Positions 23,904-40,592 of a DNA stretch of 64,000 nucleotides are shown here, in pieces. Source of the stretch: Neobacillus sp. PS3-12 (GTDB taxonomy: Bacteria; Bacillota; Bacilli; Bacillales; Cytobacillaceae); contig NZ_CP133268.1 of the NCBI RefSeq assembly GCF_030915385.1, positions 1,736,001-1,800,000 of the forward strand, written 5' to 3'. Made by a program: the position numbers and the translations under genes. Each line of letters opens with the position of its first letter. Position 1 is the stretch's first letter. The notes beneath the pieces are model-generated. The model worked only from the letters and a program-made list of their open reading frames with translations. It did not search any database and was not told the DNA's origin.

Positions 23904-24304
23904 TTGCTACTCTCCTTTCAGAAATAAATTCCAGCAAAACTAGTATAAACCAATTTTGGCTAAGATTAAAACCCTCTTCACAAACTACAGATGAAGTTCT
24001 ACCGATGAAGAATACAGATAAATCAAGGCTTTTGCCCACTTGTTTCAATTTTGTGAAACCTTGATTATTGTATTGGAAATTCGACATACGTTTTTAGTTT
24101 TACTTATTTTGTTTCAAATATTCCATGCATGTTTCATGAATTTTTTTCTATGCATTCAAAAAAACAATTATAGAATCTTAATTCGTTTAGATATATATAA
24201 TTCCGGTAAAAATGGTAATATGGTTATTGAATCTAGTAGAATACATTAATTTATATAAAAAAGAAAGGCATGACAGTCTTAAAAGGGAATGAGGTGCTGC
24301 AATA
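23904..24304. other. Intergenic region between cccB and the SEC-C gene
   Basis: 401 bp, strongly AT-rich, between divergent genes. It must hold both promoters, but I see no clear consensus hexamers with good spacing. It marks the left edge of the accessory region that separates cccB from secA/prfB. Confidence 0.4.
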
Positions 24305-26218
24305 ATGGATGTTAAAGTAGGCAGGAATGATCCTTGTCCGTGCGGTAGCGGAAAGAAATATAAAAAATGCTGTGGGGTTAATGAGGTTATTTCTCTTACC
24401 CAGGTTCTCGAATCGGACATTGACGACTTGGAAAAACAACTGTTACATTTCGCATTACGAAATTACGGAAATCAAATCGAAGAAAGTTTTGAAAACTTCC
24501 AGCAAGAATATGATTTAAATAATGACGATGAGGTCAAGTTTTTTGAATTCGTACATACCATTTGGTTTACACTTTTTGCAAAAGCAGATCAAGGTGGAAC
24601 TATTCTTGATCAATTTATCAATTCAGAATTAAGGAGAATAAAACGTCCCAAGCTTAAGCAAGTGGTGCAATCGTGGAAAGATGCGAGAGTCTTTTTCGGA
24701 ACAATCATTAGTATTGAAGATAACAGCTATATAATAGAAGATCTTTTTAGCAGTGACCGGCTTGAAGCAGTAGTCGTGACAAATCTGGAGAAACAGTATG
24801 AACAAAATGGATTTTTCGCAGCGATACTGTTGCCATTTGATCAAAAATTTGTGTTTTTCCCAGCACCGTTTGATCTTCCAAGCCTGGATAGTGAGTCTGC
24901 AGCCGAATTTATTCGTCAGGCCTATTCAGAATCCAACTATGATAACCGAAACGATTTTATGACGGAATTCTTCATGGAATTAATGTACGACCTTCCAGAA
25001 GTCGGTGCCCATTACGAAATCAACGAAATGGAATGGACAGAGCCCATTTTTCAAGAAGTGGCAGAGATTTTTCAAACCGAACTAGAGCAAATGGGTGTTG
25101 AACAAGACATCATTGACACAGGGATTTATCTTTGGAATTTATTTTGCCATAAGAAGCAAAAAAAGATTAAAAACCCATATATTTATGTCGGAGCCCTTCA
25201 TTATTTCATTTCGACGTTTGCTCCAATGGAAACGAATTATACACAGAAACAGCTGGCTGAAAAGTATGGTGTTTCCTATGGCTCACTCTCTTCTGTCTAT
25301 CGAGAATTAGAAGACACCTTGGCTGAGGATCTAGACTCCTATGAGGAGGACAACGAGGATGGGCCTGTTATCCAAATGGGTGGATCAATGGCTACTGAGA
25401 GGGTAATGCAGGAAGCTTTAGAGGAAATTAAAAACCAAGACTTTAATAATATAGAAGAAATAAATGACTTTCTTTCGAAAAAGCTGGTCTCAGCAACTTC
25501 CGGCAAGCTAAAGGACGATGCTCAGTCGCTGCTATACGATGCCTTTGAGGCTGATGGTCCCGAGCGTTATCGGTTAGCAGAAAAAGCTCTGAAACAGAAT
25601 CCAAATCTTGTCGATGCTTATAACATTCTCGCTGAAGACGCCGATTCTCTTGAAGAAGCGATCCAAATGTATGAAAAAGGTATGTGGATTGGTCAGAAAG
25701 AGTTGGGCAAAGCCTTTTTCAAGGAAAACAAAGGACATTTTTGGCTCATTTTTGAAACCAGACCATTTATGCGGGCAAAATTCAATTACGCCATGGCCCT
25801 CCTCGAATTGGGAAAACCAAATGAAGCGATTGCCCAATTTGAAGAATTGCTGGAGCTCAATCCAAATGACAGCCAAGGAGTTCGTTATTCCCTTTTTATT
25901 GCTTATGTAGAAAGAGGAGATTTACAGAAAGTCGGCAGGCTGTTGAAACAATTCGAAGAGGATAGCGCACAATCCCACTATAATACACTTTTATTGGAAT
26001 TATTGAAAAACGGTTTTTCGGCAAAAGCGAAAACATTATTAAAAACAGCCAAGGAAAACAACAAATTTGTTATCCCATATTTAAATGAAAGAAAACGTCT
26101 TCCAAAAGCAATCCCAGACAATTACGGATTTGGGGATGAAGACGAAGCAATCGTTTATGCTGATGCGCATTTGCATTTGTGGAGAATGATTGAGGGATTA
26201 CGGGACTGGTTGAAGTAA
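24305..26218 (+). CDS. SEC-C motif / TPR protein of unknown function
   Basis: A 637-residue protein with no signal peptide. The SEC-C zinc motif is at the N-terminus ([19 protein letters not shown], residues 7-25), the same motif that ends SecA in this window. The middle has an acidic region and a helix-turn-helix-like segment ([20 protein letters not shown], near residue 320). The C-terminal half has TPR-like helices ([38 protein letters not shown]). The start at ATG 24305 follows GAGGTG. It is on the plus strand beside the cytochrome cluster but is separated from it by two terminators. I recognise the domain types, not the function; SecA/SecB-linked quality control or nucleic acid binding are both possible. 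Confidence 0.75.
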
Positions 26219-26350: not shown

Positions 26351-27907
26351 TTATGGTGTTGCTGAAGAAGGAGCATGTGCGGCTTCTATAAAGGAATGAG
26401 AAGTTCCGCCGTGACAGGAAGAACAGCCTTGAGTATCACTTTGTTGATGCCCTGTAATTGCATTGCCGCTTCCGTCAGCTAATGGAAGATTTGCTGTTTT
26501 TCCATAAAGCTCTTTAGAATCGCTGTGGCAATTTAAACAGAAATTCCTTTCATTGGCAGCATCCCATGTTGTGCCACTCGAAGTAAACTTTTTCGTATTA
26601 TCAGTGATTTGTATATTTCCCAGCTTGTCTCTTAACATCTTCATATTTGTGGAACCATGTGTTTCATGGCATTCTGCACAAGGAAGCTGCCCGTTTAATG
26701 TACTTCCGCTATCACCAGTTGCTGTAATTTTATGTCCAGACTGGCTGGTATAGGTACTATTTGCATAATATTGCTTAATATTTGAAGCTTTTGTTCCATC
26801 ATGACAGCTTAAACATAATGAAAAGTCATCAGCAGTGCCAGTTGACGTGCTTGCTTTTTTATAATTGTATGTTTGTGCTGTTGTATTAGAAATTCTGTTA
26901 ATGTGGTTCGGATTATCTTTACTCCAATCAGAATGCGGATCATGGCAGCTTGTACATGATGATGAATCATTTATTTGCGCATGCTGATTAGTGCTATTAT
27001 ATTTATCCGGCATTGGTGTACCATTTGTTCCATCATGACATGCCATACATAGGTTGTCAGAGTTCTCTCCAAATTTCCCGCCTTGCAGCATGTCATTAGA
27101 GCCATTATGAACGCCATGGCAGTAATCGCAGGAATTGGTTACGTTTGAAAAGTTACCATGGATAACGTCTGGTTGACGGTATTCATTTGATTCAAACTGG
27201 TATTGCGTATTCAAGCTAATTGTCGTAAATTTAAAAAATCTCGGAATGATTCGATTACCGTCATCATTTGTAAAACCTGGGTTTAAATAAACATAATAGC
27301 TAGTACCGGGCTGAAGCAGATTGGCAGGATCAGGAGTAAATGTAAAGACATATTCATTCACGCCATTTCCCACTGCCGTTATTGTCACAAGTTTCTGAGT
27401 TCCTGTGATTTTATCCCCACTAGCTGATGATACCTCCAGCAAATGCGATGGATTAGTAATTGTTCCAGAATTCCTGACAGCAACTCTTATTATGTCATTC
27501 ACTGGTACCTGAGTCATATCTTCAGCAGACAAGTAGGTGCTTTGATCGTTAATATCCCCGACCAAACTAACATCAGACACATAAGGTCTATTGACACTCG
27601 CCAATGCAGCAGGTTGGCTCAAACTTGATGAAATACGTACTGTTTGCTGTGTTGTCGTCGCCCCACTAACAGTTGTTGTTGCTGTCGGCTGTGTTGTCGT
27701 CGTCCCGCTAACAGTTGTTGTTGCTGCTGGCTGTGTTGTCGTCGTCCCATTATCAGTTGAGGTTGTTTGCGTGCTTGTTACTCCGGTATCGGTTGCTGCA
27801 GCAAAAACATCAATTTTATAAGGGGAATATAAAAGGAAGGAACCTATAAAAATGCTCCATATGGCAATGCATGAAAAGATCTTTCGTTTGAAGTTCTTCC
27901 TCCTCAT
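26351..27907 (-). CDS. Secreted seven-haem c-type cytochrome with Ig-like domain
   Basis: Start ATG 27907 is chosen because GAGG lies 9 nt upstream; the ATG at 27916 is too close. An N-terminal signal peptide is followed by a Thr-rich segment with about three copies of a 14-residue TTTTQP-x-ATTTVSG repeat (residues 50-95). Next is a beta-rich Ig-like module resembling Big_5/SbsA-type domains (about 105-230). The C-terminal half has seven haem motifs: CDYCH, CMACH, CTSCH, CLSCH, CAECH, CLNCH, CSSCH. The first block HGNFSNVTNSCDYCHGVHNG is shared with the two hexahaem proteins, so the three are related. No sortase or S-layer motif is visible, yet the Thr-rich spacer and Ig module suggest exposure at or through the wall. 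It is the last gene of the cluster. Confidence 0.88.
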   Translation of the reverse strand: MRRKNFKRKIFSCIAIWSIFIGSFLLYSPYKIDVFAAATDTGVTSTQTTSTDNGTTTTQPAATTTVSGTTTTQPTATTTVSGATTTQQTVRISSSLSQPAALASVNRPYVSDVSLVGDINDQSTYLSAEDMTQVPVNDIIRVAVRNSGTITNPSHLLEVSSASGDKITGTQKLVTITAVGNGVNEYVFTFTPDPANLLQPGTSYYVYLNPGFTNDDGNRIIPRFFKFTTISLNTQYQFESNEYRQPDVIHGNFSNVTNSCDYCHGVHNGSNDMLQGGKFGENSDNLCMACHDGTNGTPMPDKYNSTNQHAQINDSSSCTSCHDPHSDWSKDNPNHINRISNTTAQTYNYKKASTSTGTADDFSLCLSCHDGTKASNIKQYYANSTYTSQSGHKITATGDSGSTLNGQLPCAECHETHGSTNMKMLRDKLGNIQITDNTKKFTSSGTTWDAANERNFCLNCHSDSKELYGKTANLPLADGSGNAITGHQQSDTQGCSSCHGGTSHSFIEAAHAPSSATP

Positions 27908-28006
27908 GTAATTCATCCTCTTCTGTTTACATTATTTAATATATAAATGCTAAATTTATTATATCAACTGAATTAACATTAATTTTCATCGTTAAGTTAA
28001 ATTTTT

Positions 28007-28036
28007 TTGACATTTTATAATGTGTATCTCTATAAT
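28007..28036 (+). promoter_or_regulatory. Perfect sigma-A hexamers facing the cytochrome genes (antisense)
   Basis: TTGACA - 18 nt - TATAAT on the plus strand, between two minus-strand cytochrome genes. A transcript from it would run through the hairpin at 28042 and into the 3' end of the next gene in antisense. The region is AT-rich, so chance is possible. Confidence 0.35.
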
Positions 28037-28041
28037 AATGA

Positions 28042-28076
28042 AACAAGGTGGCAAAAGTGATGTTTGTCACCTTGTT
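28042..28076 (-). terminator. Hairpin between the 6-haem and 7-haem genes
   Basis: AACAAGGTGGCA pairs with TGTCACCTTGTT (one mismatch). It has no strong T-run. A closely related stem (AACAAGGTAACAA) lies after the other hexahaem gene at 29731, so the two 3' ends are paralogous. Confidence 0.5.
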
Positions 28077-28128
28077 CAGAGGTTGTTGTTGCTGACAAAT
28101 AGCGAACTATTTGTTAGCTTTTTTTAAT

Positions 28129-29397
28129 TTACTTAATTAAAGCCTTACCAGAATAGTCTCCTCCAGGTACACCCACAGGATATCCGTTTGTTCCGGCTGT
28201 ATTAGGAATAGTAGCTGTTGATGTATGACATGTCCAACATATAGAATAGTTAGTAAACCTCTTTAAGGTTGAACCTTCTTTTGTTACATCTTTCATGTAT
28301 TGTCTAGCTAGTTCATCAGACCACGCCTTTCCGCCTTGATCCAATGGTTTTTCCAAATCTGCAATTGTTTTTCCAGATGTATCTCTTAATAATGTAATAT
28401 CTGTACCATGAGCATAGTGACATGATGTACAGCTTCGGCCTTGTTTTGTGCTGCTAGTTGAGTGTGTATATAAGTGTGCGCCATCATCAGCAAGCATAGA
28501 TCTAGAGCCTGCTTCTCTGCTTCTGTAATAATCGGTATGACAGCTTCCGCATAATGCTGAGTAATTCAATCTGTAATTACGAACGTCAGCTTGGCCAACT
28601 GTGGAACCATCCACTGCTGTTACTGTACCAAGTGAACCGTCAGGATTTTTTGGTAAATCGGTTTCAGCATAAATCCCCTTGGATTTGTAAATCTTCAATC
28701 CAGACAAGTTTGTAGCAGTATTGATTGCTGAATATGCTGGATCAAGTTGTAAATTAAGTTTAATTGCCTTTGTTCCTAATGGGATGGTACTCGTTTTTGT
28801 TATTGTTTCAGCATATCCCACAATACTAACGTTATATGTGGAACCATACTGGTTACCAGCCACTTTTTCATTTAATAAGCGGTCATTAGCAGATCCGTGA
28901 GGATTATGACAGCTTGAACATTCAAAAGTTGCTGTAGAAGTATTTTTTAAGGTTGCACCATTTGTAGTATTTACAGTTCCTGTTGACCCAGGAGCTGCAT
29001 TTTCATTTAAATGTGATTCAACTTGGTGCATAGAAGCACTTTGGTCTTGAGAAAACATGATACCTGCTTCACTTGCTGTTGTAACATCATAAAAACCTAA
29101 AGTACCATCATGGCATGACATACAGAGTTCAGATGCGCCACTCTTCATTAACAGCGTATCAGTTTCACCGTTATGCACACTATGACAGTTTGAACAAGAG
29201 TTTGTGTTATTTTGAAAGTTACCATGTGTTCTCTGTGAATTGGTAGTTCCAGTGTTATCAATTGTTGCATTGTTTAAGGTTGATGTCGGATGCTGCAAAT
29301 TAGTTGGATCAAAACCTGCTGCAGAGACAAGCCCGCCAAACATGCCTAAGAAAATAAGCATAAAAAATGCTGACAAGCCGATTTTTAACTTGCTCAT
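28129..29397 (-). CDS. OmcS-like secreted hexahaem cytochrome (paralogue A)
   Basis: Secreted 422-residue cytochrome. Signal peptide at residues 1-27 (probable cleavage VSA-AGF). Six haem motifs in order: CSNCHSVHNG, CMSCHDG, CSSCHNPHG, CGSCHTD, CTSCHYAHG, CWTCH. Number, order and flanking residues match the 391-residue paralogue encoded upstream. As I remember the sequence, they also match Geobacter OmcS (about 430 residues, six haems, CxxCHxMHN first, CSSCHDPHG third, CxSCHxAH fifth, last motif near the C-terminus). OmcS forms micrometre-long filaments, so a filament role here is a hypothesis. Unlike OmcS, the protein has about 35 residues after the last haem. GGAGG lies 8 nt before ATG, and a second perfect Shine-Dalgarno sequence lies about 85 nt upstream. 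Confidence 0.87.
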   Translation of the reverse strand: MSKLKIGLSAFFMLIFLGMFGGLVSAAGFDPTNLQHPTSTLNNATIDNTGTTNSQRTHGNFQNNTNSCSNCHSVHNGETDTLLMKSGASELCMSCHDGTLGFYDVTTASEAGIMFSQDQSASMHQVESHLNENAAPGSTGTVNTTNGATLKNTSTATFECSSCHNPHGSANDRLLNEKVAGNQYGSTYNVSIVGYAETITKTSTIPLGTKAIKLNLQLDPAYSAINTATNLSGLKIYKSKGIYAETDLPKNPDGSLGTVTAVDGSTVGQADVRNYRLNYSALCGSCHTDYYRSREAGSRSMLADDGAHLYTHSTSSTKQGRSCTSCHYAHGTDITLLRDTSGKTIADLEKPLDQGGKAWSDELARQYMKDVTKEGSTLKRFTNYSICWTCHTSTATIPNTAGTNGYPVGVPGGDYSGKALIK

Positions 29398-29478
29398 TTC
29401 TAAAAACCTCCCTATTTTTCTCTGTTTTCTCTCTCTTTTTATGGTTTAATAAGATGTAAATACCTCTGTGAGTAAACC

Positions 29479-29493
29479 ATCACCTCCTTAAAT
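29479..29493 (-). promoter_or_regulatory. Distant perfect Shine-Dalgarno element in the leader (STAB-SD-like)
   Basis: ATTTAAGGAGGTGAT on the minus strand, fully complementary to the 16S rRNA 3' end, 82-96 nt upstream of the start codon, which has its own ribosome site. The identical 15-mer is present in the leader of the paralogous gene. An unproductive strong Shine-Dalgarno sequence in a leader is known to stabilise cry3A-type mRNA in Bacillus. Confidence 0.55.
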
Positions 29494-29656
29494 GATAAAT
29501 AAATATATTTTATGCCTAATGAACGCATTTAAAATGTATATATTATCAAAAAACAAACCTAACTGGGAGGCAAATTGTCTGTTTCTTGCTCCTCTTCAAA
29601 TTTATAAAACAATATTTCATAACTTAGATTCTCTATTTGTTTAAATTACTTTTCTA

Positions 29657-29674
29657 TGTGATTAAAATTTCACA
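29657..29674. promoter_or_regulatory. Palindrome TGTGA-N8-TCACA, possible regulator site
   Basis: Perfect 5-bp outer arms with an AT-rich centre. CRP/FNR-family sites in Bacillus are TGTGA-N6-TCACA, so the spacer here is two bases too long for a standard FNR box. It lies about 260 bp upstream of paralogue A. Confidence 0.3.
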
Positions 29675-29730
29675 TATATTGTCAGTGCTTATTTCTAAAA
29701 TATTTTTATTTCAATAAGATTCAAATGATT

Positions 29731-29768
29731 TAGAACAAGGTAACAACACCTATTGTTACCTTGTTCTA
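29731..29768 (-). terminator. Hairpin after hexahaem paralogue B
   Basis: TAGAACAAGGTAACAA pairs perfectly over 16 bp with TTGTTACCTTGTTCTA. Only short T-tracts follow, so it may act as terminator or as a 3'-end stabiliser. Confidence 0.6.
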
Positions 29769-29786
29769 TTTAATTACTTTTCTTAT

Positions 29787-30962
29787 TTAGTTGCCCACTA
29801 TTTTTGATTTTCCAAGCATATTGCCGGCCCCATCTTTGTATTTCGGGTCAACAGTTGTTGAAATTTTGCCTGCATGACAAGCAAAACATACTGCGCGATT
29901 AGTAAATTTCTTCAATGCGGATCCACCAGGTGCTATATCTTTCATGTATGCTGTAGCTTGGTCCTGGGTCCAGCCATATATTCCGCCTTGATCAGTTGGT
30001 TTTGTATAATCGGCAATTGTATTTCCAATAGCATCCATCAACGTTCTCTCATCTGTACCGTGTGCATAGTGACAAGCCGCACAGTTTCTACCTTGTTTAG
30101 ATGAATTAGTTGTATGCGTATATTTTCCATAATTCGAGTGAGCAGCCTGATAGGTAGCATCATTTTGGCTAGTTTTACCTGTACTTCTGTTTGCAAAATA
30201 ATCATCATGACATGCTCCGCAGAATTGTGAATAGTAGATATCACTTGCTACTGAATTATAGGTTGCAGTAGCAACAGGACCTGCGGATTTTGTAATTTTC
30301 ACACCGTTTGGACCAGTTGCATCATTGACAGCTTTATAAGTATCATCATTTGTTAAGTTCATTTTAATTGTTTGAGTTCCTGTCGGAACAGGTGTTTGTG
30401 TACCATTTACTAAAGAAGTTGCAAAAGTAGTGCCATTAACTTTTTCATTTAATAATCTATCATTTGGTGAACCGTGTGGGTTGTGACAGCTGGAGCATTC
30501 TAATACATCTGTTGATTTATTGTTATATGCTCCTGGTGCTGTTCCAATTTTAATTGCTTCACCAACATTGTGCATAGAAACACTTGTGTGTCCTGCTGTT
30601 TTATCAAAATCAAATACTCCGGCTCCGCTTGGAGCTGTAACATCGTAGAAGCCCATTGTACCATCATGGCAAGATTCACATAGTTCGGAATCTCCAGATT
30701 TCATTAACAAATAATTGGTTTGCCCGTTGTGCACACTATGGCAGTTTGCACAGGAGTTTGTGTTGTTTTGGAAATTACCGTGTGTTCTTTGTGTACCTTG
30801 AGAACCATCATTATTGACATCAGCTGAATAAATATTTGGTGCCGGATGTGTTGATGTCGGTACGAATGATGGATCTGGAGCTGCTGCAAAGGCCACAGCG
30901 CTGAACATGCCTAATAAAATAAGCATGAATACAGTTGATAAGCCTAATTTAATCTTGCTCAT
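29787..30962 (-). CDS. OmcS-like secreted hexahaem cytochrome (paralogue B)
   Basis: Secreted 391-residue cytochrome with signal peptide (residues 1-27, AFA-AAP). Six haem motifs: CANCHSVHNG, CESCHDG, CSSCHNPHG, CGACHDD, CAACHYAHG, CFACHAGK, the last about 30 residues from the end. It shares with paralogue A the block THGNFQNNTNSC before the first haem and RLLNEKV after the third, so the pair arose by duplication. The linkers, especially between haems 3 and 4, have diverged. The haem order is the same as in OmcS (from memory), including a helix rich in A/Y before the sixth motif. Extra histidines (for example MHN, HSNYGKYTH) could be distal ligands for bis-His haems. It lies 102 nt after the NHL gene. 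Confidence 0.88.
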   Translation of the reverse strand: MSKIKLGLSTVFMLILLGMFSAVAFAAAPDPSFVPTSTHPAPNIYSADVNNDGSQGTQRTHGNFQNNTNSCANCHSVHNGQTNYLLMKSGDSELCESCHDGTMGFYDVTAPSGAGVFDFDKTAGHTSVSMHNVGEAIKIGTAPGAYNNKSTDVLECSSCHNPHGSPNDRLLNEKVNGTTFATSLVNGTQTPVPTGTQTIKMNLTNDDTYKAVNDATGPNGVKITKSAGPVATATYNSVASDIYYSQFCGACHDDYFANRSTGKTSQNDATYQAAHSNYGKYTHTTNSSKQGRNCAACHYAHGTDERTLMDAIGNTIADYTKPTDQGGIYGWTQDQATAYMKDIAPGGSALKKFTNRAVCFACHAGKISTTVDPKYKDGAGNMLGKSKIVGN

Positions 30963-31035
30963 TCTAAAAACCTCCCAAAGTTTTCTCTCTCTTTTTTCTA
31001 AAAATATATATCTTTAAGTTGTGATCCTTTACGCA

Positions 31036-31050
31036 ATCACCTCCTTAAAT
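31036..31050 (-). promoter_or_regulatory. Second distant perfect Shine-Dalgarno element (STAB-SD-like)
   Basis: The same 15-mer ATTTAAGGAGGTGAT as at 29479, here 14 nt after the NHL stop codon and 74-88 nt before the start of paralogue B. No start codon with workable spacing follows it. It could protect a processed 5' end and raise the amount of cytochrome mRNA relative to the upstream genes. Confidence 0.55.
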
Positions 31051-31064
31051 AAATAACAGAAATT

Positions 31065-32027
31065 TTATTTAAAGATGGATACCCTTTGGTTAACTGTATC
31101 TGTCACATACAATTGATCACTATCATCAATGAACAGGCCATTTGGGAGATAAAACTTATCATTTGTAGTACCCATACCGCCTAATTCATATAATTCTTTC
31201 CCATTCTGGTCAAACGCATAAACAGTATGTGAGAGATTGTTCACTACATAAAGGTTACCCTTTGAATCGACACCTACACCTCTTGGATTTAAGAATGTTG
31301 GATTGCCTTTACCATCTTTTGACCCGTTAATTAGTTTGATATATTTTCCGTTTTTATCAAAAATTTCAACTCTATTATTTGCAGAATCTGAGACATAGAT
31401 ATTATTATTAAAATCTACTGTTACAGCATTAGGTGCGATAAATTTTCCGGCAGCATCGCCAGGTCCGCCAATCTCCATTAATTTTTTTCCGTTCAGATCA
31501 AAAACAAATACCTTATTTACTTTAATATCTGTAACATAAAGTTTTTCATTAAAAATTCGCATACCGCCTGGAGCTTTAAGAACTTTGTCCTTATCGTTAA
31601 AATATTTGATGAATTTACCCTTAGAATCAAAGATAGAAATATTGGCATTATTCATATCTGCAACATAAATGTGGCCATTGCTATCTCCATCTATTCCATA
31701 TGGAAAAGCAAATTCACCTTCTTTATTACCCGCCTTCCCAAATTTGAAGGCTGCGGATCCGGATTCATCAAAAACTTGTACATCTTTACTGTTTGCGTCG
31801 GTTACATAAATGTAATTGTCAACTTTTGCGACATCCATCGGCTTTTTAAGTGGCTGATTGAAGTCCCCGTACAATGCATTTGTAAATGTTTTTGGACCAG
31901 ATTTAACACTAGCAACAACCGGTTTTATTATTTTTGATTCTAAATGAAAAATAGAGACTACTGCAAAAAAAGCAACGGCAAGGGCAACAATGCCACCCAT
32001 TATAAAATAAACAGTTTTCTTTTTCAT
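31065..32027 (-). CDS. Membrane-anchored NHL-repeat beta-propeller
   Basis: A 320-residue protein with one N-terminal transmembrane anchor (residues 6-28, IMGGIVALAVAFFAVVSIF) and then six NHL repeats forming a beta-propeller outside the membrane. The repeat signature is YVTDxxNxxVxVFDxxGK, seen at about residues 72, 118, 162, 208, 256 and 304. NHL propellers often sit beside multihaem cytochromes in electron-transfer loci and are thought to act in assembly or docking; the function here is inferred. AAAGGAG precedes ATG 32027, and the gene begins 16 nt after the TPR gene, so the two are cotranscribed. Confidence 0.85.
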   Translation of the reverse strand: MKKKTVYFIMGGIVALAVAFFAVVSIFHLESKIIKPVVASVKSGPKTFTNALYGDFNQPLKKPMDVAKVDNYIYVTDANSKDVQVFDESGSAAFKFGKAGNKEGEFAFPYGIDGDSNGHIYVADMNNANISIFDSKGKFIKYFNDKDKVLKAPGGMRIFNEKLYVTDIKVNKVFVFDLNGKKLMEIGGPGDAAGKFIAPNAVTVDFNNNIYVSDSANNRVEIFDKNGKYIKLINGSKDGKGNPTFLNPRGVGVDSKGNLYVVNNLSHTVYAFDQNGKELYELGGMGTTNDKFYLPNGLFIDDSDQLYVTDTVNQRVSIFK

Positions 32028-32043
32028 GTGTGGTCAACTCCTT

Positions 32044-32751
32044 TTACTTGTTGTCTTTTTGTTTTGCAGCGACTCTTTCCAAGCCTTGAGATGCAGGTTT
32101 ATATAGCGGATCGTAGGATAAAGCCTCTTTAAAGAATTTCTCAGCTTCTTTATTGTTGCCCTGATCTTCTTTTACTCTGCCTATTTCCGTAATAATATCC
32201 GTGTTTGTCGGCATAATCTTAAGTGCTGACTGCAGGGATTTAAGTGCCTTATCGTACTGTTTCAAATTACGATAGACCATACCTGATAATAAGTGTGCCT
32301 GGAAATTTTTAGGTCCAAGCGTTTCTGCTTTTTGAGCCATTCTTATCGCATCGTTGTATCTTTTCTCAGAATTATAAACAAGTCCAAGGTTAAAGTAAGC
32401 ACCGAAGTTTTTGTTATCCAGGTTTATCGCAACTTGCAGCTGTTTAACCGCATTATCTGTATCACCTGTTAAAAAGTATGAGTAGCCTAAGTTTACGCGA
32501 TTTTCAGGATTATTTGGCTTTTTATCCACTAATCCTTTATAGTAATCTACTTGTTCATAGAGCCTCGCTTCATCTTTACTAGGCCACACATATTTATTGC
32601 ATATAAAGTACCCTGCACCCAAACTAATGACTAAGGTTGCGAATATAAGCAAAAATGACTGTAATTTTGAAAAGCTCTTCTTTTTTTCCTGTTGAAGCTG
32701 CGTTCTTTCATTATTTTCCGGTTCTGGATTTATTGGCTGTGTAGCCTTCAT
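32044..32751 (-). CDS. Membrane-anchored TPR protein
   Basis: From ATG 32751 (GAGGTGG upstream; an alternative ATG at 32784 lies inside the inverted-repeat region) the protein has 235 residues. A polar N-terminus with a coiled stretch is followed by one transmembrane helix (about residues 34-55). About four TPR repeats follow outside (for example ENRVNLGYSYFLTGDTDNAV and AYFNLGLVYNSEKRYNDAI). TPR arrays near multihaem cytochromes in other bacteria serve as scaffolds. It sits between the 12-haem gene and the NHL gene and is separated from the former by a perfect 20-bp inverted repeat. Confidence 0.8.
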   Translation of the reverse strand: MKATQPINPEPENNERTQLQQEKKKSFSKLQSFLLIFATLVISLGAGYFICNKYVWPSKDEARLYEQVDYYKGLVDKKPNNPENRVNLGYSYFLTGDTDNAVKQLQVAINLDNKNFGAYFNLGLVYNSEKRYNDAIRMAQKAETLGPKNFQAHLLSGMVYRNLKQYDKALKSLQSALKIMPTNTDIITEIGRVKEDQGNNKEAEKFFKEALSYDPLYKPASQGLERVAAKQKDNK

Positions 32752-32784
32752 AAATATCCACCTCAAATTCAGTTTTATTTGCAT

Positions 32785-32835
32785 AACTACTGATAGTTTT
32801 GTTGATGGTAAAATACAACAAAACTATCAGTAGTT
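32785..32835. repeat. Perfect 20-bp inverted repeat between cytochrome and TPR genes
   Basis: The arms at 32785-32804 and 32816-32835 are fully complementary (20 of 20), with an 11-nt loop. No T-run follows in either direction, so it is not a standard terminator. It is suited to block 3' exonuclease decay of the upstream 12-haem message or to attenuate readthrough. Confidence 0.85.
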
Positions 32836-32845
32836 TAATAGTGTG

Positions 32846-34009
32846 TTAATCTTCCTTGTGGCATTTTGTACAAGTGTTTTGATCATGACACTTATAGCAT
32901 GTTGCTGAAGGTTTCGTAATTCCAGCTAACGGAATTGGATGTGTATCAAGTTCTGAAACCTTTTTATGTGTGGCCGGATGGCATGTAGCGCAAATTACTT
33001 GATTTGAGTTAGTCGAGCCTATCTTGCTAGTATCGTGGCACGCTTTACATGTTTCTATATTGCTTCCAGCAACTGTTCCATGGTTGTTGAAGAAATTACT
33101 ATCGTGACTTGCCGGTTTCTTGGCATGGCATTTCTGACAGAAAGTATTTTCCTTAGCGTATTGAGTTGCTGTAATTGTACCTGTGCTTGAAGTGCTATTT
33201 TCTAAAAATTGCTGTGAAACAGTTTTTGTTTGAAGATCCTTGATTGGATCATCAGACATATATGAGTGGCAGCTGTCACATTTCTTAATATCTTTTTCTG
33301 CAAGCTTGCCATGTCCGCCCTTCATAAAGTTCGGATCATCATGAGTCGTCGGTTTCAGGCCCGTTGAATGACAAGTCTTACATGCTGTCGAAACATTGTT
33401 CGCTTTGTGGCAGCTAATGCAATCTTCCATTTTTGGCTGAGTAAATTTCACATCACTCATCATTTGTTTTCCAAGAGTATCGTTCCATTTATCGTAATCT
33501 GTTTTAAAAGTTACATTCCGATCGGATATATCTCCATGTGCAACACCGCTGTGGCACTCAACGCATTTGACGCCTTCCTTTAAGTGCTTTTCATGCGGTA
33601 TGATAATATCTCCTGCCGGTGTAACATCCCGCGTCTTCATATTGTGACATTTCTCACAAGTAGAATTTGGAATTTGTGTTGGCATATGAATAGGTGCTGG
33701 ATAACCGTTGGTTACTTTTTCATATACCTGTACCAGACCGTTCATTTTCGCTTTCGCATAATTAACCACGCCAGATTGAATATGGCATTCCTTACATTCC
33801 ACATTACTATGGGATGAGGCTTTCAGTGTTTCAGCTTCCGGTTTCATTTCATGGCAAGTACTGCAAAACGATTTACTTGATGTTTCTTCGACCGTTGCGT
33901 AACCTGCTACAATTAATAAAACAAGAGAAGCAAATACAATAGTCAGGATTTTGTAAAAAGTAGCTCGTGAACGAGTTATTGATGTTCTTTCTTTTTTATC
34001 GTCTTCCAT
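32846..34009 (-). CDS. Membrane-anchored twelve-haem NapC/NrfH-type cytochrome
   Basis: A 387-residue protein with one N-terminal transmembrane helix (residues 20-42) and twelve CXXCH motifs outside: CSTCH, CKECH, CEKCH, CVECH, CISCH, CKTCH, CDSCH, CQKCH, CKACH, CATCH, CYKCH and CTKCH. The first block (SFCSTCHEMKPE...VECKECHI) is the NapC/NirT/NrfH quinol-dehydrogenase signature, which normally has four or five haems. Seven or eight extra haems are appended. Expected role: take electrons from menaquinol and move them outward across the wall. AAGGAGG precedes ATG 34009. It follows the 8-haem gene by 174 nt and is likely cotranscribed. Confidence 0.9.
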   Translation of the reverse strand: MEDDKKERTSITRSRATFYKILTIVFASLVLLIVAGYATVEETSSKSFCSTCHEMKPEAETLKASSHSNVECKECHIQSGVVNYAKAKMNGLVQVYEKVTNGYPAPIHMPTQIPNSTCEKCHNMKTRDVTPAGDIIIPHEKHLKEGVKCVECHSGVAHGDISDRNVTFKTDYDKWNDTLGKQMMSDVKFTQPKMEDCISCHKANNVSTACKTCHSTGLKPTTHDDPNFMKGGHGKLAEKDIKKCDSCHSYMSDDPIKDLQTKTVSQQFLENSTSSTGTITATQYAKENTFCQKCHAKKPASHDSNFFNNHGTVAGSNIETCKACHDTSKIGSTNSNQVICATCHPATHKKVSELDTHPIPLAGITKPSATCYKCHDQNTCTKCHKED

Positions 34010-34183
34010 TTAATGTCCCTCCTTACTCTTGACGTTAATTAAAATTTGGATTCACCTTTTAAAAAATCTTATCTCCGAAAAAAGGTGAAATACACTTCAG
34101 TGGGTGCCTGTCCATCTTTTAAGTTTTTTTGTGATCATGGCACACAATATTTTGTATTATGTTCTATAAGCCACTCTCACGCG

Positions 34184-35323
34184 TCAAGTTTTTGAAGGGA
34201 GATTGCTATGGCAAGTCTTACAAAAAGTATTCTTGTTTGCTTCGTCATTTGCCTGTTGGGCATTTGGTACGTATTTTGGAGCTTTATCTCCATATTTTAG
34301 TAAAGTCATAATATCTTGTTTCGCAATTGGTCTTAACCAGTTGGAATCCTGGTGACAGTTCATACATTTATCTAATTGCTGAACTGCATCTGCACCGTGA
34401 TTGCTGTTAAAATCAGCATTTTGGTGGTACTTTGGAATGCTCATGCTTGAGTGACAAGTTTTACATTCCATTGAAATTTTTGAATGTGTTTGATCCTTGC
34501 CGATTGCTTCTAACATGATTTTTTGGGTATCAGCTTTTGTTACAGTTGTTGTAGATCCAGTATCTTCCGCTTTTGTAGTCTTTTCTTCCGGATTTGCTGG
34601 CACATTGTATGCAGCTTCCTCCCATGGCTTTTCACCTTTGTTTACTTTTTCATGGCAATCAATACATGTTCCCATGTTCGGACGCAAATACTTTTCTTCA
34701 ATTAACTTTTCAGCATTTTGCTTGGATGTCCATTTCGTACGATCCGCTGCGACATTAAGGTCACGAGCTGCCATCTTGGCGTGTACAACACCAGAGTGAC
34801 AGGTGATACAAGGAATCCCCTCATCAATATGTTTCTTATGATCAACCTTCGTATCGCCTGATGGTGTGACTAAGCGATTCTCGGAATGACATTGTAAGCA
34901 GTTCTGGTTGGATACAGCTTCCTCTTCTGTCTGGACGATTTGATTTGGAACACCTGTAACGTGGTAATAGACCTCTTTAAGTGATTTCACTTTGTGTGTC
35001 AGCATGTTGACAACACCTGGTTTGATGTGACACTGCACACAACTAATCTGATTATGTGCACTAGCTGTATAAGTTGAATATTCCGGTGCCATTTCATGAC
35101 AGCTGGAACAAAAAGATGGCGAGTTTGTGAACGAAAGTACACCATACCCTCCACCAAATACAACGACACAGCCGACCAAACTAGCTAAGAGCAATTTCCA
35201 GCGATTTACGGGATCTTTCCAATCTATGCTTTGAATCTTTCGCCATAGTCTTCGTATGGGGCCAGATTTATTTCTGTCTTCTCTGGTCTCTATCTCTGTA
35301 GGTTTTTTCCCCCAAAAGGCCAC
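34184..35323 (-). CDS. Membrane-anchored eight-haem NapC/NrfH-type cytochrome
   Basis: First gene of the cluster. Start is GTG 35323 with AAAGGGTGA upstream; GTG 35332 is too close to that site. The roughly 379-residue protein has a 40-residue basic cytoplasmic tail, one transmembrane helix (LLLASLVGCVVVFGGGYG) and eight CXXCH motifs: CSSCH, CVQCH, CLQCH, CITCH, CIDCH, CKTCH, CMNCH, CKTCH. The first four haems and their spacing (SFCSSCHEMAPE, SCVQCHIKPGVV, CLQCHSENR, PCITCHSGV) match the NapC/NrfH fold and align with the first four of the 12-haem protein. It is a probable menaquinol oxidase module feeding the outer cytochromes. No nitrite reductase NrfA or nitrate reductase gene is nearby. 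Confidence 0.9.
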   Translation of the reverse strand: MAFWGKKPTEIETREDRNKSGPIRRLWRKIQSIDWKDPVNRWKLLLASLVGCVVVFGGGYGVLSFTNSPSFCSSCHEMAPEYSTYTASAHNQISCVQCHIKPGVVNMLTHKVKSLKEVYYHVTGVPNQIVQTEEEAVSNQNCLQCHSENRLVTPSGDTKVDHKKHIDEGIPCITCHSGVVHAKMAARDLNVAADRTKWTSKQNAEKLIEEKYLRPNMGTCIDCHEKVNKGEKPWEEAAYNVPANPEEKTTKAEDTGSTTTVTKADTQKIMLEAIGKDQTHSKISMECKTCHSSMSIPKYHQNADFNSNHGADAVQQLDKCMNCHQDSNWLRPIAKQDIMTLLKYGDKAPKYVPNAQQANDEANKNTFCKTCHSNLPSKT

Positions 35324-35797
35324 TATGCTCACCCTTTCTGTATTGGACTAGCCTTACGATAATTAACCTCTCTAAAGGTAGTATCTATCATTGAAAGGGT
35401 ATTTTCCAATGTACAATTTGTGAATATTTGTCGATAGGTGAAAAGTATGATTTTTTTAGAAAAACAACATAGAAATGTTGTTAAATAAGGGTGTTGGTTA
35501 GCATTGTATAAATAGTGTTAACTGCATAAGACTTTATTTTTATACAGTTTTGATGTGTTTCATGCAATTGTAAGAAAACTTTCACAGAATGTTTTGAATT
35601 GGGGACCTTTTAAGCTTAGACATTAAGATTTTGTAAAGGTTGGATTAGGATCTTGCATATGTTGTCACTGAATAGAGGAAATGGTAAGATGGTTAGAGTT
35701 ACCTAAGAGTATTTTGGAGGATTCGGCCTAATTAAAGCGAATCTTTTTTCATTAGGATGGTTTTGAAGATGTTTGATAAAAGGAGAGTTTATCAAGA
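35324..35797. other. Divergent promoter region between the cytochrome cluster and secA
   Basis: 474 bp, AT-rich, with the promoters for both the cytochrome operon (minus) and secA (plus). A small hairpin ACAACATAGAAATGTTGT lies near 35465. I see no certain FNR, ResD or other operator and no open frame worth calling. Confidence 0.4.
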
Positions 35798-40501: not shown

Positions 40502-40547
40502 CCTGCTTCACCTCCTTATTCGACAATTATACCATAAAAAGAGCAAT

Positions 40548-40583
40548 TTAAAACGCAGCCCCTAAATTTGGGAGCTGCGTTTG
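40548..40583 (-). terminator. Terminator after hpf
   Basis: Minus strand AAACGCAGCTCCC pairs with GGGGCTGCGTTT (one bulge) and is followed by a weak T-run. Confidence 0.75.
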
Positions 40584-40592
40584 ATTTCATTA

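Follow-up and report, generated by a model that had tools for sequence, protein, structure and literature searches.

The window analysed here, a stretch of 64,000 nucleotides from Neobacillus sp. PS3-12 (contig NZ_CP133268.1, positions 1736001–1800000; the host genome is a single contig of 5,612,023 bases with a contamination estimate of 11.98), contains seven open reading frames (ORFs) at 26351–35323 (or 35332), all on the minus strand, between secA and a SEC-C/TPR gene, which are both on the plus strand. The seven genes, numbered g1 to g7 from the secA side, form a real conserved multihaem set of bacilli, which resembles the kind described in Thermincola and Carboxydothermus. We consider it probable that this cluster is a quinol-fed electron conduit that leads through the thick cell wall to an acceptor outside the cell.

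CXXCH motifs number 8, 12, 0, 0, 6, 6 and 7 in g1 to g7, which makes 39, and outside the cluster no ORF of 60 aa or longer in the window carries more than one. Pfam recognizes the NapC/NirT N-terminal region in g1 (34184–35323; E-value 2.3e-29, 102.8 bits) and in g2 (32846–34009; 9.5e-19, 68.2 bits), against a cut-off of 24.1; both proteins stay under the NCBIfam equivalog cut-offs for NrfH and NapC. According to the same database g3 (32044–32784) is a TPR protein, g4 (31065–32027) is an NHL propeller, with six blades, and g5 (29787–30962), g6 (28129–29397; 51% identical to g5) and g7 (26351–27916) are doubled-CXXCH proteins. Inspection by eye suggests a single N-terminal membrane helix in each of g1–g4 and a signal peptide in each of g5–g7. 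The start of g1 at 35323 (GTG) is likelier than the one at 35332, because some relatives have ATG at the former position (by eye). A preceding reading, made from the sequence only, had listed five multihaem cytochromes, one TPR and one NHL protein on one strand, NapC/NrfH-type starts of the first two genes and secretion of the last three cytochromes; the ORF and Pfam analysis confirmed the inventory, the NapC/NirT matches are well above the cut-off, and the assignment of g5–g7 as secreted cytochromes is supported, with conserved axial His residues. It had also proposed a check for cytochrome c maturation genes, one of which, ResB, is present in the genome.

The two anchored cytochromes, g1 and g2, resemble NrfH. 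A PDB search with the g1 profile returned NrfH (2j7a) as the sole match (1.9e-14), and NrfH was also the best match of the g2 profile (2.8e-15), followed by cytochromes c3 and others. The first haem motif is kept as CXXCHxM in both proteins; we take it to be the quinol-side haem of NrfH, and g1 is predicted to be a probable quinol oxidase. Counting alignment columns with a free His in at least 85% of rows as conserved, we found 10 such columns for 10 haems in g1 and 10 for 12 haems in g2; the first of the two g2 haems without a conserved free His in this count is that of CXXCHxM, as in NrfH. All aligned g1 proteins have 10 haems except the window protein and its sister from locus L027, with 8 each; the g1 of genome G616 has 9 (L and G numbers denote our loci and genomes). 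The gap after g1 (34010–34183, minus strand) contains in shifted frames the strings "VCHDHKK" and "APTEVY", which resemble lost g1 modules, and is an apparent decayed remnant of haem modules 9–10 (translation read against the alignment by eye). The two C-terminal haem modules are missing from L027 as well. A second g1-type gene, with 10 haems, is found beyond secA in L040, L042 and L068. Elsewhere in the genome (2912701–2913360) there is a truncated 6-haem copy of g2, directly followed by a gene for a Crp-type regulator, with no reductase seen beside it.

In the secreted hexahaem family, represented by g5 and g6, six conserved free His columns accompany the six haems, each in 27 of 27 rows, and g7 has eight such columns for seven haems. 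CXXCK is absent from all 87 aligned rows (20+20+27+20). The six fixed free His residues of the hexahaem rows, together with the absence of CXXCK, favour conduction rather than catalysis, and as judged from sequence the His counts fit electron conduction with an NrfH-like quinol end. The most variable member of the set is g7, the probable outermost element, which in longer frames of relatives has 7, 8 or 10 haems. In the window protein a beta-rich, possibly Ig-like region precedes the haem part; it has no Ig match in Pfam and appears only as a beta-rich stretch in a low-confidence model, for which the best Foldseek hit (E-value 5.2e-3) gives at most an Ig-like hint. Among six g7 relatives scanned with Pfam, Ig domains score above the cut-off in L104 and L062 and below it in L054, and L035 has a sub-threshold LysM match. 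Neither g5 nor g7 has a match in PHROGs.

The co-occurrence search that had been suggested at the outset showed that the set is conserved as a unit. A search of named genomes with g1 yielded 44 loci, mostly from Neobacillus or unnamed Bacillus, including N. vireti DSM 15602 (L030) and N. bataviensis LMG 21833 (L034); the closest relative is L027, from "Bacillus sp. EB600", whose g1 is 81% identical. The order g1, g2, TPR, NHL, one to three hexahaem genes and a g7-type frame is kept in 41 of these loci, the exceptions being L067, which runs off the end of its contig, and the distant L069 and L070. In 42 of the 44, g1 (or an extra copy or fragment of it) lies divergent beside secA. The g2 profile at E≤1e-60 matches 80 of the 193 genomes of the window's GTDB family, in 11 of 25 genera. 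In a sample of the class Bacilli it matches 3 of 299 genomes, of which one is our own and two are from other families: G618 has a g1-g2-TPR-NHL-hexahaem set divergent from secA plus a second g2-TPR-NHL-hexahaem set, and G616 has the set with no secA nearby. In a sample of the phylum Bacillota the same profile at 1e-30 matches 32 of 398 genomes, the 31 others all being outside Bacilli; in G099, G359 and G441 the matches are of NrfH length only. We examined regions from 20 of these 31 genomes, picked among the best matches: genes for a g2-type protein, TPR and NHL are collinear in 17, a hexahaem-family gene follows in 15 (with a weak match of 75–99 bits in L114 and L121), and L104 (G118, outside Bacilli) encodes a g7-type protein too. 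L103 and L070 are one contig, L027 belongs to G001 and L028 to G024; the counts of named loci and of family genomes are not independent, because the two sets overlap.

The sequence-only reading proposed that the cluster is an acquired block; the distribution speaks against a recent acquisition, given that 80 of 193 family genomes match and that G618, from another family of Bacilli, also has the set beside secA. In an unrooted tree of g2 and g4 (36 sets plus the window) G618, G616 and the non-Bacilli G118 are nearest to the family and apart from the other lineages; several nodes have supports of 21–64, and the tree gives neither direction nor time, for which reasons recent horizontal gain was not retained as an explanation. 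The interruption of the gene order cccB-prfB-secA, earlier taken as a sign of insertion, proved to be a product of an inversion. The segment 24283–40540 of the window (~16 kb; prfB-secA-cluster-SEC-C) is inverted with respect to L027 4673–20607, with breakpoints within 24058–24283 and 40540–40592. L027 keeps cccB-prfB-secA uninterrupted and has the cluster between secA and hpf; the interrupted order in the window is thus due to the inversion and does not mark an insertion point. Of the 42 loci with secA nearby, 32 have hpf and secA pointing towards each other; the rest do not, and one of these shows no hpf. The orientation of the secA-cluster unit relative to hpf varies among relatives, and the SEC-C/TPR gene (24305–26218 in the window) is near the block in many of them, on either side.

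Upstream of g1 we found a 22-bp element, TATTCACAAATTGTACATTGGA (35405–35426, minus strand), which is identical in 37 of the 44 loci and has at most 4 mismatches in 42. Its host genome has a single copy even with 3 mismatches allowed. With at most 2 mismatches it is present in 77 of the 193 family genomes, including 73 of the 80 cluster bearers, and a control with the reversed element gave none among the matches listed. The four genomes that have the element and no g2 match are G514 (66% complete), G575 (720 contigs), and G023 and G599, whose copies have two mismatches. The end of the element overlaps TTGGAA (35404–35409), the putative -35 sequence, which with GATACT (35380–35385) forms a putative sigma-A-like promoter at 35380–35409 on the minus strand; of 47 upstream regions, 44 have TTGGAn and GATACT separated by 17 or 18 bases. 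The sequence features thus suggest a sigma-A-like promoter with a probable activator site. A looser form of the element is seen by eye in G618, and ACCTTTAGAGAGGT is conserved at 35366–35379, just past the -10 and near the expected transcript start.

On its other strand the 22-bp element holds TTTGTGAAT, a possible ResD motif, an assignment that the accessible part of PMC4409812 does not confirm; this 9-mer by itself occurs twice in the window, about as often as chance predicts (1.94). Two other candidate sites were rejected. An Fnr box upstream of g1 is exact in one of the 47 regions (L066) and has one mismatch in five others, with none in the window. For the Rex operator, whose motif we took from the available text of PMC2883068, constancy is limited to the half-site TTCACAA: most regions depart from the full site at 2–3 positions, one region at a single position and some at more, and no site with 3 or fewer mismatches is present in the window. 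Rfam gave no match in the window.

The hexahaem genes have a further feature of their own. The sequence ARGGDGGTG occurs 77–123 nt before the start in 51 of 57 of them, including both in the window (31032–31048 before g5 and 29477–29492 before g6, minus strand), followed by GAGAGA-rich sequence; the six without it are in L028, L038, L043, L046, L060 and L063. It is found in none of 169 usable other cluster genes and in 2 of 206 background ORFs of the same loci. Rows with no usable start or upstream sequence were left out of these counts: 28 of 43 for g7, whose zero is accordingly based on 15, and 23 of 177 for g1–g4. The choice of starts in the loci depended in part on whether a ribosome-binding sequence was present. 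The leaders are similar to the STAB-SD mRNA stabilizer and suggest bulk synthesis of the hexahaem proteins. Hairpins with energies well under those of shuffled sequences lie between g2 and g3 (32785–32835, minus strand; 20-bp perfect, z -8.6), between g5 and g6 (29724–29775, minus strand; z -6.5) and between g6 and g7. We did not meet the 22-bp promoter element or the stabilizer-like leaders in the accessible portions of PMC7096707, PMC7911101, PMC7829351, PMC3475470, PMC6703420, PMC11748539, PMC6497744, PMC4409812, PMC4113751 and PMC2883068.

We propose that g1 and g2 would oxidize menaquinol and pass the electrons to the secreted g5 and g6, which may be made in bulk from stabilized mRNA and would conduct them through the peptidoglycan to g7 at the surface. 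g7 would hand them to an outside acceptor such as Fe(III), humics, an electrode or a partner. The membrane-anchored TPR (g3) and NHL (g4) proteins would be probable assembly or docking factors, and transcription of the operon, probably at low oxygen, would start from a single dedicated promoter next to secA. A more far-reaching version can be advanced only tentatively, and we have more doubt than confidence in it: hexahaem wires similar to those of OmcS might run through the peptidoglycan of spore-formers in the Neobacillus group, which are mesophiles that tolerate oxygen; the wires would be made in bulk from stabilized mRNAs under one ultraconserved dedicated promoter, so that common soil bacilli would respire minerals or humics directly.

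Several results weigh against the proposed conduit. g1 has lost two haems in the window. No OcwA- or OmhA-like protein was found in four non-exhaustive family scans of the genome, and therefore g7 would be the terminal element; Pfam recognizes no wall anchor in the window g7. The match of the hexahaem profile to OmcS in the PDB search is weak (1.7e-4), with two other chains scoring better, namely a cystathionine beta-synthase entry (8.5e-8, on short haem-motif stretches) and a "Cytochrome c" chain (4.8e-5). The AlphaFold models of g5 (pLDDT 53.8, pTM 0.48) and g7 (pLDDT 51.4) are poor, because of which there is no fold evidence, and a Foldseek search with the g5 model returned nothing meaningful. 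The association of the cluster with NrfA, described in the next paragraph, is also unfavourable.

The four scans (PF09699, PF13435, PF02335 and PF14522) detected beyond the cluster only NrfHA, the truncated g2 copy and a weak frame at 1041593. The earlier statement that no terminal reductase lies nearby holds for the block, among whose seven proteins Pfam and NCBIfam identify neither NrfA nor NapA, and for the window; it does not extend to the genome, where NrfHA is encoded at about 2106409–2108267 (NrfA 2106409–2107653), ~335 kb from the cluster. Moreover, NrfA (PF02335) is commoner in cluster bearers: it occurs in 61 of 80, and in 33 of the 113 family genomes that lack the cluster (odds ratio 7.8, kinship ignored). 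Both facts favour the view that the cluster feeds a soluble reductase outside the cytoplasm whose gene lies elsewhere, most of all NrfA (nitrite to ammonium), and so serves as an extra quinol-to-NrfA wire. We regard this as quite unlikely, since 19 of the 80 bearers, the sister G001 among them, have no PF02335 match, NrfA has its own adjoining NrfH at that distant position, and the membrane-bound NrfHA needs no three secreted multihaem proteins. Kinship may or may not explain the association; as one genus (g24) accounts for most carriers, it may explain much of it.

A different possibility is that g7 itself reduces a soluble acceptor, such as a metalloid or an oxyanion of nitrogen or sulfur, in which case the set would be a respiratory complex complete in itself instead of a wire to solids. 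The variability of g7 in haem number (7, 8 or 10) and in Ig- or LysM-like parts is what one would expect of an acceptor-specific end, but its seven haems are matched by eight columns of conserved free His, and with CXXCK lacking as well no evident open haem site is left; we judge such a role unlikely. The direction of flow might also be inward, with electrons taken from reductants outside or from partner cells and delivered to the quinone pool. Conduits built of multihaem proteins may, as is generally known, work in both directions, but members of this family are organotrophs, which makes an inward conduit highly improbable. Equally improbable in our view is a non-respiratory role, in which the proteins would act in the wall as a redox sink or as a store of haem and so guard against oxidants. 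It would agree with the high hexahaem expression suggested by the leaders and with the mainly aerobic life of the hosts, but the two NapC/NrfH-type anchors kept in the 41 full-set loci (of 44) would then be needless. The outward, quinol-fed conduit thus remains the reading that we prefer.

External electron transfer by multihaem cytochromes of Gram-positive bacteria has been worked out for a few thermophilic anaerobes, according to the accessible parts of PMC7096707, PMC7911101 and PMC7829351, from which the published systems are also described below. A compact conserved set in cultured bacilli would allow tests in mesophiles of how the Gram-positive wall is crossed, for which the 22-bp element and the stabilizer-like leaders are concrete experimental handles, and it would add a possible contributor to the cycling of iron, humics and nitrogen in soil. 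In the partial listings of the open-licence literature that we searched, no title deals with this cluster in Neobacillus or Bacillus, and the word "multiheme" is absent from a 2012 paper on B. bataviensis, which is a carrier (L034).

Among known systems, the NrfH/NapC quinol dehydrogenases are similar to g1 and g2 in the N-terminal helix and the first four haems, but g1 and g2 carry four to eight further haems and belong to an operon without an NrfA or Nap partner. OmcS of Geobacter shares with the hexahaem proteins six haems, a similar length, a weak profile match and one conserved free His per haem; the similarity is weak, however, a Gram-positive wall takes the place of the outer membrane, and polymerization is only hypothesized here. 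No MtrCAB-type outer-membrane beta-barrel porin was identified among the seven proteins by Pfam or NCBIfam. Like the 5' mRNA stabilizer STAB-SD of cry3A (PMC4113751, accessible part), the hexahaem leaders have a Shine-Dalgarno-like sequence 77–123 nt before the start, separate from the gene's own; unlike it, they lie within an operon and include a GAGAGA-rich tract, and their stabilizing role is putative.

The closest counterparts are found in Carboxydothermus and Thermincola, judged by published haem numbers and sizes. In C. ferrireducens the protein SmhB branches near "bacillary hexahemes", is raised under ferric citrate, and has its best Thermincola match in TherJR_1122, with 24% identity (PMC7829351); a Firmicutes hexaheme cluster is labelled "unassigned function" in the literature, as far as its text was accessible. 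In our set, L115 (G108) combines collinear genes for a 14-haem NapC-type protein, TPR and NHL with a divergent 12-haem gene of the hexahaem family, one 806-aa ORF away, and two C. ferrireducens genes in a published table (PMC7829351) agree with it in size and spacing; L115 differs from the window in haem counts, in the divergent 12-haem gene and in having no g1 or g7 alongside. The Thermincola pathway runs ImdcA-PdcA-CwcA-OcwA (TherJR_1117, 0333, 1122 and 2595), where ImdcA is a 10-haem membrane protein and CwcA a 6-haem protein, modelled on OmcS and thought to span the wall (PMC7096707, PMC7911101). The cluster of Neobacillus differs in its occurrence in Bacilli, in that a single operon also encodes a second anchored cytochrome, with 12 haems, TPR and NHL proteins and a protein with 7 haems, and in that the scans of its genome found no OcwA-like protein. 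It shares with Thermincola the anchored cytochrome of about 10 haems (g1 and g2, although g1 has 8 here) and the combination of a putative membrane quinol oxidase with a putative hexahaem wall cytochrome, which in Thermincola are encoded five gene numbers apart.

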